From Thioalkalivibrio sp. ALJ7 (GTDB lineage: Bacteria > Pseudomonadota > Gammaproteobacteria > Ectothiorhodospirales > Ectothiorhodospiraceae): a DNA stretch of 64,000 bases. Shown piece after piece: positions 33,008-39,003 of this stretch (its first letter is position 1; each line of letters opens with the position of its first letter). The stretch covers positions 124,001 to 188,000 of the forward strand of contig NZ_AQXQ01000010.1 of assembly GCF_000376865.1 (NCBI RefSeq), given 5' to 3'. The translations under genes and the position numbers were made by a program. The notes beneath the pieces are model-generated. The model saw nothing but the letters and a program-made list of their open reading frames with translations, had not been told where the DNA came from and did not search any database.

Positions 33008-34913
<1,906 letters not shown>

Positions 34914-34935
34914 CAGGCCCATCCGGAGTGACCCC

Positions 34936-36012
34936 GTGAAACCTTCTCTGCCCGGAAATCATCGCTTCGGCGTTCTCGCCACCCTGGTGCTGTTCTTCAT
35001 GGCGCTGGCGATCCTGCCGACGGCCGCGGCGGACGATCCGGACGAGGACGAACTGCTGGAAGAAGGGCTCGTCTTCGACGACACCCCGCGGCCGATTGGC
35101 TTGCATACCCCTGAATGGTTTGAACTGAGTTTTCTCGATCTGCGGGAGGACCTGGAAGACGCCGTGGAGCAGGGCAAGATGGGGCTGGCGGTGTACTTCG
35201 GGATGGACGACTGCCCCTATTGCGAGGCGCTGTTCGACAAGAACTTTTCCCAGGATGACATCCGTGACTATCTGTCTTCGCACTTCAATGTGGTGGCAAT
35301 CGATGCCCTGGGAACACGCGAGGTCACGGATCTTGATGGCGAGACCTGGCTGGAGCGGCGTTATGCCGCCGAGCGGCGCCTGAATTTTACCCCGTCCATT
35401 GCCTTTTATGACGCCGAGGGTGAGCGGATTCACCAGATGCGGGGGTATTATCCGCCGTACCGGTTTCGCGCGTTGCTGGAGTATGTGATCGACCGCCACG
35501 ATAAGGAAAAAAGCTTCCGAGACTATCTGGAGCGGGCCGATCCACCGCCCAAGTTTGATCTGGATGACATCAACGAACGCGACTTCTTTGTGAACCCGCC
35601 GTATGCGCTGGATCGCAGCCGGATTCCAGCGGATCGTCCGTTGGTGGTCTTCTTCGAACGCGAGGCCTGCCATGCCTGCGATATCCTGCATTCCGAGCCC
35701 TTGCAGGATGACGCCGTGTTAGAGCGCATTGCGATGATGGATGCGGTGCAGCTAAACGCGGACGATCCCGATACGCCCGTGCTGACGCCGGCGGGGGAGC
35801 GTACCAATGCGAAAGAATGGGCGGCGGACCTGGACGTTCACTGGGCGCCGACCATGATCTTTTTCGACGAGAAGGGCGAGGAGATCATCCGGATCGACTC
35901 CGTGGTCCACCTGAATCGTCTGCGCAACGTGATGGACTATGTGCTGACGCGCGGTTACGAGGAATTCCCGACGTTTGAACTCTGGCGTGCGCAGCAGCCG
36001 GCGCGCCCCTGA
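34936..36012 (+). CDS. Periplasmic protein with two thioredoxin-like domains
   Basis: GTG 34936 follows ggag by seven bases. The 358-residue precursor has a signal peptide (FGVLATLVLFFMALAILPTAAA). It is followed by two thioredoxin-fold domains: the first (about 55-190) with DDCPYCEALF (CPYC motif), the second (about 230-350) with REACHACDILH (CHAC motif). SoxW and related periplasmic thioredoxins use such motifs for disulfide reduction in sulfur-oxidising bacteria. The fusion of two domains is uncommon. Its neighbour downstream is a small membrane protein. Confidence 0.85.
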   Translation: MKPSLPGNHRFGVLATLVLFFMALAILPTAAADDPDEDELLEEGLVFDDTPRPIGLHTPEWFELSFLDLREDLEDAVEQGKMGLAVYFGMDDCPYCEALFDKNFSQDDIRDYLSSHFNVVAIDALGTREVTDLDGETWLERRYAAERRLNFTPSIAFYDAEGERIHQMRGYYPPYRFRALLEYVIDRHDKEKSFRDYLERADPPPKFDLDDINERDFFVNPPYALDRSRIPADRPLVVFFEREACHACDILHSEPLQDDAVLERIAMMDAVQLNADDPDTPVLTPAGERTNAKEWAADLDVHWAPTMIFFDEKGEEIIRIDSVVHLNRLRNVMDYVLTRGYEEFPTFELWRAQQPARP

Positions 36013-36035: not shown

Positions 36036-36440
36036 GTGCACTTCGAACGTGATTTCGTGATCCGTAACCGGGATGTCCTGGAGGGCATCGTCGCCCGTTC
36101 TCATCGCGTGGCGCTGGGCATCTTCGTGCTGACGTTTGCGGGGTATGGTGGTGCGGTCTGGCTGTGGTTCCAGGACAATCTCTGGGGCGCGCTGATCCTG
36201 GCGACGGTTAGCTACTTGGTGTTTCGGCAGTTCCGCATGCTCGCACTGGGCATGGCGCGTATGCCCTTGCGGGGCGATCCAGAGGCGGTGGAGGCGCTCC
36301 GCGCGATTGATGTCGCGTTGGACCAGGACAAGCCACACCCCGTGCTGGCCGAGGTGGAGGCCCACCTGCGGGCGCTGGAGGATGAACCGCCCAGCGCCGA
36401 GGAGCGCCGCACGGCGGCGGACCAAGACGACACAAAGTAG
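36036..36440 (+). CDS. Small membrane protein with two helices
   Basis: The GTG start at 36036 yields a 134-residue protein. Two hydrophobic helices (about 26-45 and 51-72) lie between a basic N-terminus and an acidic, helical C-terminal tail (about 80-134). I do not recognise the family. It lies 23 bases after the double-thioredoxin gene on the same strand, so the two may be one operon. Confidence 0.7.
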   Translation: MHFERDFVIRNRDVLEGIVARSHRVALGIFVLTFAGYGGAVWLWFQDNLWGALILATVSYLVFRQFRMLALGMARMPLRGDPEAVEALRAIDVALDQDKPHPVLAEVEAHLRALEDEPPSAEERRTAADQDDTK

Positions 36441-36480: not shown

Positions 36481-36804
36481 TCAGAGTTCGACCGGCACGC
36501 CCAGCTTCTGCTCGATCACGCGCACCAGGGTCGCGTGCAGCTCCTCGCCATTACGATCGTCGATCCAGGCGCCTTCCTCGTCGGAATAGCCGAAGTGGGC
36601 CGGCCCTTCGGGCGAGGACAGCCAGATCTGCTGGGCCGCCTCCTGACGATTGAGGATCATCTGGGCGCCGTCGTCGAATTCGATCGTCATGACCCCATCG
36701 ATCAGGTCGATGTCCAGATCGTCCAGGGCGCTCTGGTCGCTCAGTCGGGTCTGGATGTCGTCCAGGGTGTTTTCGGCAAATACGGCAAAAGACGTCTGGC
36801 TCAT
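36481..36804 (-). CDS. cyaY: Iron donor / frataxin homologue CyaY
   Basis: This 107-residue frataxin-fold protein matches bacterial CyaY in length and in its acidic first helix (FAENTLDDIQTRLSDQSALDDLDIDLIDG), which binds iron, followed by GVMTIEFDDGAQMILNRQEAAQQIWLSSP. CyaY modulates Fe-S cluster assembly with IscS. It is convergent to the small membrane protein gene. Confidence 0.95.
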   Translation of the reverse strand: MSQTSFAVFAENTLDDIQTRLSDQSALDDLDIDLIDGVMTIEFDDGAQMILNRQEAAQQIWLSSPEGPAHFGYSDEEGAWIDDRNGEELHATLVRVIEQKLGVPVEL

Positions 36805-37675: not shown

Positions 37676-38236
37676 GTGCAGGTCCCGAATGACACCCTGG
37701 CGCGGGTGCGAATCCGCGCCCTGATCAAGTTGATGGTTTTCGGCGCAGTCGCCTTGTTGGTGGTCGTGCTGTTGAGCTACGCGCTCTCACGCCCGGGCGA
37801 TGCTCGCGGCGAGACCTTGCGTGTGGACCTGCGAGACATCGCGCCCGGTGAGGCGAAACGCCTGGTATGGGAGAGCCGGCGGGTGCTGGTGGTGCATCGG
37901 GATGCCGCGTGGCAGGAGGCGTTAGCCGACGATGCAGATCTCGCCGACCCCAATGCCCGGAGGGGGCAGCAGCCGGATGGCCTGACGTTGCCCCTGCGTA
38001 GTTATCGCCCGGAATGGCTAGTGGTGATCGGCGAAAGCACCGATTTGGGCTGCGAACTGAATCTCGTGCACCCCGAAGAAGCGGAAGGCTGGTCCGGTGG
38101 GTTTGAGGATCGCTGCCGGGGGGGGCGGTATGACGGGGCGGGACGCGTCTATGCCGATCAGCCGGCGCGTAGAAACCTTCCAATTCCGGAATATCGCCTG
38201 TCCGGTGATGATCAACTCATCCTTGGAGGTTCCTGA
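37676..38236 (+). CDS. Membrane-anchored Rieske-fold protein lacking cluster ligands
   Basis: GTG 37676 follows gagagg by six bases. The 186-residue protein has one N-terminal membrane helix (LIKLMVFGAVALLVVVLLSYAL) and a periplasmic domain resembling the Rieske subunit of cytochrome bc complexes. Where bc1 Rieske proteins have CTHLGC this protein has STDLGC. Where they have CPCHGSHYD it has DRCRGGRYD. The tail GRVYADQPARRNLPIPEYRL matches the usual end. Thus both disulfide cysteines are kept while all four 2Fe-2S ligands are replaced. An electron-transfer role is therefore unlikely; a structural or assembly role is possible. Confidence 0.75.
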   Translation: MQVPNDTLARVRIRALIKLMVFGAVALLVVVLLSYALSRPGDARGETLRVDLRDIAPGEAKRLVWESRRVLVVHRDAAWQEALADDADLADPNARRGQQPDGLTLPLRSYRPEWLVVIGESTDLGCELNLVHPEEAEGWSGGFEDRCRGGRYDGAGRVYADQPARRNLPIPEYRLSGDDQLILGGS

Positions 38237-38247
38237 CGCTCGCAGGC

Positions 38248-39003
38248 TCAGGGGGCTTGAAACGCGGGATAGAGGTCGAAGCGCACGCTCTTTCCTTTCA
38301 CGCTGGCCTGAGGCGTGTCCGGCCCGATGGCTGGGGCGTGCAGGGGCCGTTTAACGATCACGCGGCGTTCGACTCCTGCGCGTAGGGTGGCGAGGGTCTG
38401 GTCGGCATCCGGGTCGGCCGCATCCGGCATCAGCGCCTGAATCAATTGCATGTCCTTTTTTACGGCCGCTCGCTTGGCCCGTTCCGGGAACATGGGATCA
38501 AACACCGCTGCGGTCGCCGGTGGTTCCAGCTGGCTCGGGTTGGCCGGGCCTTCGAACAGGGTGATGCGTTCGATGATGGTTGCCAGCTCGGATGTTCGGC
38601 TCGCGCGCGCAAGCGCATCGGCAAGGAGCCGGTACACCACCGGGTGGCGCTCCCAGGCGGTGACGCGGAAGCCATGCGCCGCCAGGAGCAGGGTGTCGCG
38701 GCCGATGCCGGCGGAGGCGTCAATGACATGGCTGTCGCGCGGCAGCTTGCCGAATGCGCGGATCAGCCCCTCGCGCTGATGCCCGGCATGGGCGAGCCGA
38801 TAGCCCTGGCGCCCGGCGGCAAAATCCAGGTGAAGCCGCAAGGGTGGACGGCGATCGGTGCGCAGGAGCGCAAGCCCCTCGGGGCCGAGCTCCAACGTCA
38901 GTTCGGCCTCTCCCGAATGCTGATAACCAAGTGCCTCCAGTGTCTCGCGCAGGGCGCGGGCTTCGGCCTCGTGCCCCAGGATCGCTTGTACTGTGAGCGG
39001 CAT
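38248..39003 (-). CDS. rsmJ: 16S rRNA (guanine-1516-N2) methyltransferase RsmJ
   Basis: This 251-residue class I methyltransferase has VIDASAGIGRDTLLLAAHG as SAM motif, TAWERHPVVYRLLADAL, and the substrate motif FDPMFPERAKRAAVKKDMQLIQAL, which is specific to RsmJ (formerly YhiQ). It modifies G1516 of 16S rRNA. Start ATG 39003. It is followed downstream on this strand by nothing closer than the convergent Rieske-like gene; slyX lies directly upstream. Confidence 0.93.
   Translation of the reverse strand: MPLTVQAILGHEAEARALRETLEALGYQHSGEAELTLELGPEGLALLRTDRRPPLRLHLDFAAGRQGYRLAHAGHQREGLIRAFGKLPRDSHVIDASAGIGRDTLLLAAHGFRVTAWERHPVVYRLLADALARASRTSELATIIERITLFEGPANPSQLEPPATAAVFDPMFPERAKRAAVKKDMQLIQALMPDAADPDADQTLATLRAGVERRVIVKRPLHAPAIGPDTPQASVKGKSVRFDLYPAFQAP

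Follow-up and report, generated by a model that had tools for sequence, protein, structure and literature searches.

Our analysis of a 64,000-nucleotide stretch of the genome of Thioalkalivibrio sp. ALJ7 (the window) reveals a membrane-anchored paralog of PetA, the Rieske protein of the cytochrome bc1 complex, in which all four ligands of the iron-sulfur cluster have been replaced. The loss of every ligand argues against [2Fe-2S] binding and electron carrying in this protein, which we refer to as RLP, and its status as a noncarrier is well supported. What RLP does today has to be read from what it has lost. We infer that it is probably a cofactor-free former electron carrier that has been reused as a membrane-anchored structural or regulatory protein of the periplasm. 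We would rank a structural or regulatory module of this kind above three other roles, namely, an effector of the bc1 complex, a disulfide-based sensor, and a binding site for some other metal.

Cluster ligands and fold

The gene and its features are listed in Table 1. The product consists of one N-terminal hydrophobic helix followed by an ectodomain. Both loops of the cluster site align unambiguously with the CTHLGC and C-x-CHGS motifs of bc1 Rieske proteins, such that the ligands Cys, His, Cys, and His correspond to S121, D123, D145, and R148, just as the original prediction had read them from the DNA. The same prediction held that only the cysteines of the stabilizing disulfide survive, and indeed C126 and C147, which fall at the positions of the disulfide pair, are the only cysteines in the protein. 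One detail requires correction: CPCHGS had been taken as the reference for the second loop, whereas the PetA of the same genome reads CGCHGS, a difference that leaves the claim of ligand loss unaffected.

Table 1. Features of the RLP gene and its neighbors (window positions; residue numbers refer to RLP)
Feature	Position	Strand	Comment
RLP gene, cluster-less Rieske paralog, 186 aa	37676..38236	+	Opens with GTG at 37676; stop included, ending at 38236
Juxtamembrane basic segment R10-x3-R14-x3-K18, residues 10-18	37703..37729	+	Twin-arginine (Tat) motif absent
Transmembrane segment, residues 19-37	37730..37786	+	Part of model helix 5-36
Loop 1, STDLGC, residues 121-126	38036..38053	+	Cys ligand replaced by S, His ligand by D123; C126 in disulfide
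Loop 2, DRCRGG, residues 145-150	38108..38125	+	Cys ligand replaced by D145, His ligand by R148; C147 in disulfide
Former Pro loop, QPARRNL, residues 162-168	38159..38179	+	Mostly xPAPxNL in PetAs
cyaY (frataxin)	36481..36804	-	Part of conserved neighborhood; context only
P114, uncharacterized conserved protein, 114 aa	37261..37605	-	Divergent neighbor; not specific to RLP
rsmJ (SAM_MT, PF04445)	38248..39003	-	Convergent neighbor; context only

Judged by sequence comparison, the relationship between RLP and Rieske proteins is far beyond chance. A search against family profiles, which had been suggested as a check, matched the window RLP to the NCBIfam model for bc1 Rieske proteins (TIGR01416) with 91.1 bits (E 7.8e-26), short of the model's equivalog cut-off of 97.4 bits. 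Among solved chains, the nearest in sequence was 8smr_C (E 4.5e-27), the Rieske subunit of the bc1-cbb3 supercomplex of Pseudomonas aeruginosa. In Pfam, the Rieske family is PF00355; a Pfam scan of the window RLP returned no match, even at E 10.

Structure prediction told the same story. An AlphaFold2 model built from 30 RLP sequences, with no PetA and no templates, had a mean pLDDT of 88.8 and displayed a Rieske fold with an N-terminal membrane anchor rather than an unrelated fold. Its best Foldseek match was again 8smr (E 1e-14). With VIA-align, 8smr_C could be aligned over 182 residues (Z 22.6) at an rmsd of 12.5 Å, a high value that probably reflects a different angle of the anchor helix in the model, while the second closest structure, 7yr9_A (Z 22.1), was aligned over 140 residues at 1.5 Å.

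That second structure offers an instructive parallel. 7YR9 is a zinc-containing, cluster-free, and putatively immature form of PetA from Thermochromatium tepidum (Zn-PetA), whose authors conclude that the cluster site already has its conformation ahead of cluster insertion and describe that removal of the metal lowers resistance to protease (PMC10492824). Like RLP, Zn-PetA has a Rieske fold that stands without an iron-sulfur cluster; unlike RLP, which has no ligand cysteine at all, it keeps its ligands and is proposed to be a transient precursor. The findings on Zn-PetA imply that a Rieske fold can stand without its cluster, and the lower protease resistance implies that such a fold is not automatically stable, so that replacement support may be needed. 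A second likeness, by description, is NirD, the Rieske-fold small subunit of assimilatory nitrite reductase, which is also said to lack cluster ligands. NirD, which comes from a different lineage, is unlike RLP in being soluble and cytoplasmic and in forming part of an enzyme, and no NirD chain was found among the Foldseek and VIA-align matches listed for the RLP model.

The loss of ligands extends well beyond the window. From 245 profile matches over all loci, we kept 125 distinct sequences, which were split by loop 1 into 77 RLPs, from Thioalkalivibrio, Ectothiorhodospira, and other Gammaproteobacteria, and 48 PetAs. All four ligands were present in 48 of 48 PetA rows, while the full set (C-x-H plus C-x2-H) was kept in none of the 77 RLP rows. 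Specifically, no RLP had a cysteine at either ligand cysteine site or a histidine at the second histidine site, and the second cysteine site was aspartate or glutamate in 75 of 77 rows. The first histidine site was occupied by another residue in 76 of 77; the exception (locus L209) has a histidine in an expanded loop 1 that aligns to this site, where its sister (L208) has glutamine. Whether orthologs share the four substitutions had also been named as a check. They do so across the RLP clade, in which there was no ortholog with intact ligands. Matches that carry ligands group with PetA in the tree and were rejected as orthologs of RLP. We also dismissed a candidate for a ligand-bearing intermediate: a PetA-level match beside P114 in genome G336 proved to be an RLP that is highly divergent and lacks the ligands.

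RLP and the bc1 complex of its hosts

The genome that contains the window also has an intact petABC operon on another contig (C6). There, a PetA that scores 222.7 bits against TIGR01416 is followed by the genes for cytochrome b and cytochrome c1, and RLP is therefore a second, separate gene. RLP lies apart from these cytochrome genes and stands alone on its own strand, between the divergent P114 and the convergent rsmJ.

Phylogenetic trees were built from 51 RLP and 39 PetA representatives, with both groups thinned to less than 80% identity and with one truncated (L029) and one rearranged (L066) sequence left out. The RLPs made up one side of a branch with support of 100/99, for which the bootstrap was not fully settled. 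When both loops and the Pro loop were removed, the branch persisted (SH-aLRT 98), and the division of sequences by loop 1 is therefore not circular for the tree. Named relatives, at 34 loci, belonged to Thioalkalivibrio, Ectothiorhodospira, and three unplaced MAGs.

Of the 47 genomes sampled from the window's order, 40 carry an RLP with a score of no less than 183 bits, and the next-best matches reach at most 134 bits. Five of the seven remaining genomes (G008, G014, G020, G030, and G066) are less than 90% complete, and G066 holds a fragment with a stop; the other two (G003 and G032) are near complete and of high quality. RLP was also found in 25 of 48 genomes of one further order and in two of five genomes of another (both at E 1e-53). 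In the class sample, 13 of 369 genomes scored at least 217 bits, a count that is a lower bound because the RLP at locus L121 (G284) hides at a PetA-level score. In the phylum sample, one of 359 genomes passed E 1e-48, and that genome was the window's own. As for copy number, two genomes (G035 and G062; loci L174, L175, L184, and L185) have two intact PetA genes besides RLP, and G414 has two RLP-level matches (L265 and L269), possibly owing to recent duplication or contamination.

This distribution bears on the possibility that RLP still works on the bc1 complex, where it might assist in assembly or, in the manner of a dead Rieske arm, take up the position of PetA and tune or block the flow of electrons. 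Consistent with such a role, RLP derives from PetA, keeps its topology and core, and is accompanied by a PetA match in every RLP-bearing genome of the order except G028, which is 58% complete. Yet, G003 and G032 have PetA without RLP, and G232, an assembly that is 86% complete, has RLP with no match to PetA. Moreover, RLP does not lie beside petABC in the window genome, and its conserved neighbors are other genes. A further objection comes from the positions that PetA conserves and that the alignment shows to be relaxed in RLPs, which include the transmembrane glycines at 21 and 24, the proline at 31, the linker at about 38 to 47, the leucine at the tip (L124), and the Pro-loop residues P163 and P165. 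In PetA, the linker, the tip leucine, and the Pro loop serve the hinge and docking. Movement of the Rieske domain is described as essential for electron transfer in complex III (PMC9812224). With the hinge, the docking leucine, and the Pro loop all relaxed, a direct mimic of PetA docking is less likely, and overall we consider it unlikely that RLP acts on the bc1 complex.

The genes around RLP were themselves considered as a source of clues. cyaY, a DUF423 gene, P114, and rsmJ recur in its vicinity; rsmJ accompanies RLP in 13 of 15 diverse loci and in 47 of 50 RLP loci, several of which are the same genome twice (a 51st locus, L141, is PetA). We set this conservation aside, as it looks like old housekeeping synteny and not like a pathway. 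P114 was ruled out as a dedicated partner of RLP, given that it occurs in 113 of 369 genomes of the class, most of which have no recognized RLP, and that it is located away from RLP in G055 and G171. No Pfam or NCBIfam family was found for P114; its model is small and helical (pLDDT 74.6), had no PDB match in Foldseek at E 0.001, and accompanies a sequence whose invariant residues lie in an N-D-x3-G-M-T stretch and around T-C-x-G-W. At two loci (L067 and L068), cyaY is directly upstream of RLP on the same strand, whereas it is on the opposite strand in the window's family. Farther upstream in the window, a gene beside serS (34900-36012, plus strand) encodes two thioredoxin-like stretches (PF13098) with weak similarity to DsbH/DsbD-type families, and it is found upstream of RLP in some loci only. 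A 134-aa protein encoded at 36036-36440 on the plus strand has no convincing family, yet many loci from other genera have a recognized copy in the vicinity of RLP.

Disulfide, cluster pocket, and selection

If RLP has no cluster, its disulfide might be the functional element, being redox active and sensing the periplasmic redox state or reduced sulfur species. Both cysteines are retained in 77 of 77 RLP rows, exactly two cysteines occur in 69 of 75 matched regions, and many of the host genera are sulfur oxidizers. However, the corresponding disulfide of PetA is structural, most neighbors of RLP are nonredox genes, and the double-thioredoxin gene was recognized in only part of the clade. We therefore regard a sensory disulfide as improbable.

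RLPs have also acquired residues of their own. Among RLP representatives, but not in PetA, the residues that have become fixed include D123 (84%), D145 (90%), R148 (82%), and Q162 (86%). D123 and R148, which occupy the former histidine sites, co-vary, ranking third of 16,471 column pairs by corrected mutual information. Across 52 representatives, 43 combine an acid with arginine, two have the acid without arginine (L067 and L068, which pair D with S), seven have neither, and none has arginine without the acid (Fisher p 2.7e-7). The association stands after removal of alignment-doubtful or exceptional rows. Once corrected for the tree, the coupling appears suggestive only, with four independent coupled losses on the best tree, two on starred branches, and a sign test on these few events that gave p 0.5. 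Both Rieske histidines hold the same iron, and an Asp-Arg ion pair at their sites is therefore sterically reasonable.

The conservation of two acidic residues at former ligand positions could alternatively indicate that the substituted site (S121, D123, and D145) binds another metal ion or a small ligand. Several features speak against this. R148 occupies the fourth former ligand position in most rows, and several lineages have given up D123 along with R148, so that only one acid is left. Furthermore, the zinc in Zn-PetA is held by two cysteines (PMC10492824), and these are absent from RLPs. On balance, we view a substitute ligand as very unlikely.

On the evidence of their substitution rates and conserved positions, RLPs are under purifying selection, with the disulfide and core fold kept. 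Ratios of dN to dS ranged from 0.055 to 0.306 in 16 close RLP pairs, and 27 positions are conserved (at least 85%) in both RLP and PetA, which bears out the original prediction that selection acts on the fold and not on the cluster. At the same time, dN was larger for RLP than for the PetA of the same genomes in 21 of 21 genome pairs; RLP is therefore constrained but freer than PetA. This faster divergence might be taken to mean that RLP is a decaying, functionless duplicate, but that idea is refuted, to our minds almost conclusively, by the dN/dS values, by the breadth of RLP's distribution in the order, and by the finding that no RLP match listed at 183 bits or more in the order sample contains an internal stop. 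Selection, distribution, and the strength of the match to TIGR01416 also ruled out a chance resemblance or a pseudogene.

Export and probable reuse of a former electron carrier

Rieske proteins are a textbook example of Tat substrates that are exported folded and loaded with their cofactor. Across the RLP clade, by contrast with PetA, motif and hydropathy scores show a loss of the Tat motif and a higher hydrophobicity of the anchor helix. With an approximate regular expression, a Tat-like motif was detected before the helix in 6 of 75 RLPs versus 47 of 48 PetAs, and the best 18-residue hydropathy of the anchor was 2.47 in RLP versus 1.93 in PetA (Mann-Whitney p 3e-18). PF10399, the Pfam model of the Tat signal of bc1 iron-sulfur proteins, matched the PetA of the window genome with 39.2 bits; it matched neither the window RLP nor 19 RLPs nor 10 further RLPs that were scanned. 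In addition, the conservation of R14 and K18, at 96% each, is a feature of RLPs that PetA does not share. Insertion of a cofactor in the cytoplasm causes folding and so necessitates export by Tat (PMC10924467), and handover to Tat needs a helix of low hydrophobicity (PMC5449189). A protein that no longer needed Tat once its cofactor was lost would be expected to show the pattern seen in RLPs.

Together, these observations lead us back to a cofactor-free structural or regulatory protein as our preferred reading. RLP and PetA have in common one N-terminal helix, an ectodomain of the Rieske type, the disulfide pair, and a set of conserved positions; RLP departs from PetA in having no ligands, no Tat signal, a relaxed hinge, docking leucine, and Pro loop, and a location apart from petB and petC. 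In our account, RLP descends from the bc1 Rieske protein and has stopped carrying electrons. It would be inserted by Sec/SRP as an apoprotein, because nothing needs to be loaded in the cytoplasm; since six RLPs keep a Tat-like motif, we do not extend this route to all members of the clade. The disulfide would then form in the periplasm, where an ion pair between D123 and R148 may help to hold the empty cluster pocket together, accompanied by the acidic D145 at the former cysteine position. More speculatively, the anchored domain may serve the periplasm as a binding module with a structural or regulatory task, and the newly fixed basic residues R10, R14, and K18, where the helix faces the cytoplasm, are perhaps the likeliest contact for a partner or for lipid. 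A more specific picture can be offered only tentatively: RLP may be inserted by Sec and act in the periplasm as a scaffold or redox sensor that has its own partner and a pocket rebuilt as a co-evolving Asp-Arg ion pair, and it may belong to a distinct gammaproteobacterial family that is partly misnamed by the models now in use.

Our search of a library of open-access papers found no description of a family of cluster-less PetA paralogs. In databases, some of its members are likely to travel under another name. Of 10 other cluster-less RLPs that we scanned, four (L055, L057, L059, and L064) passed the TIGR01416 cut-off for a "ubiquinol-cytochrome c reductase iron-sulfur subunit," which means that automatic annotation will misname some RLPs. 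The clade thus exposes a naming problem in a curated model of an iron-sulfur subunit. It also shows what a Rieske fold requires in order to stand without its cluster. Finally, because ligands and Tat motif were lost together, RLPs allow a direct test of the cofactor as the reason for export by Tat.
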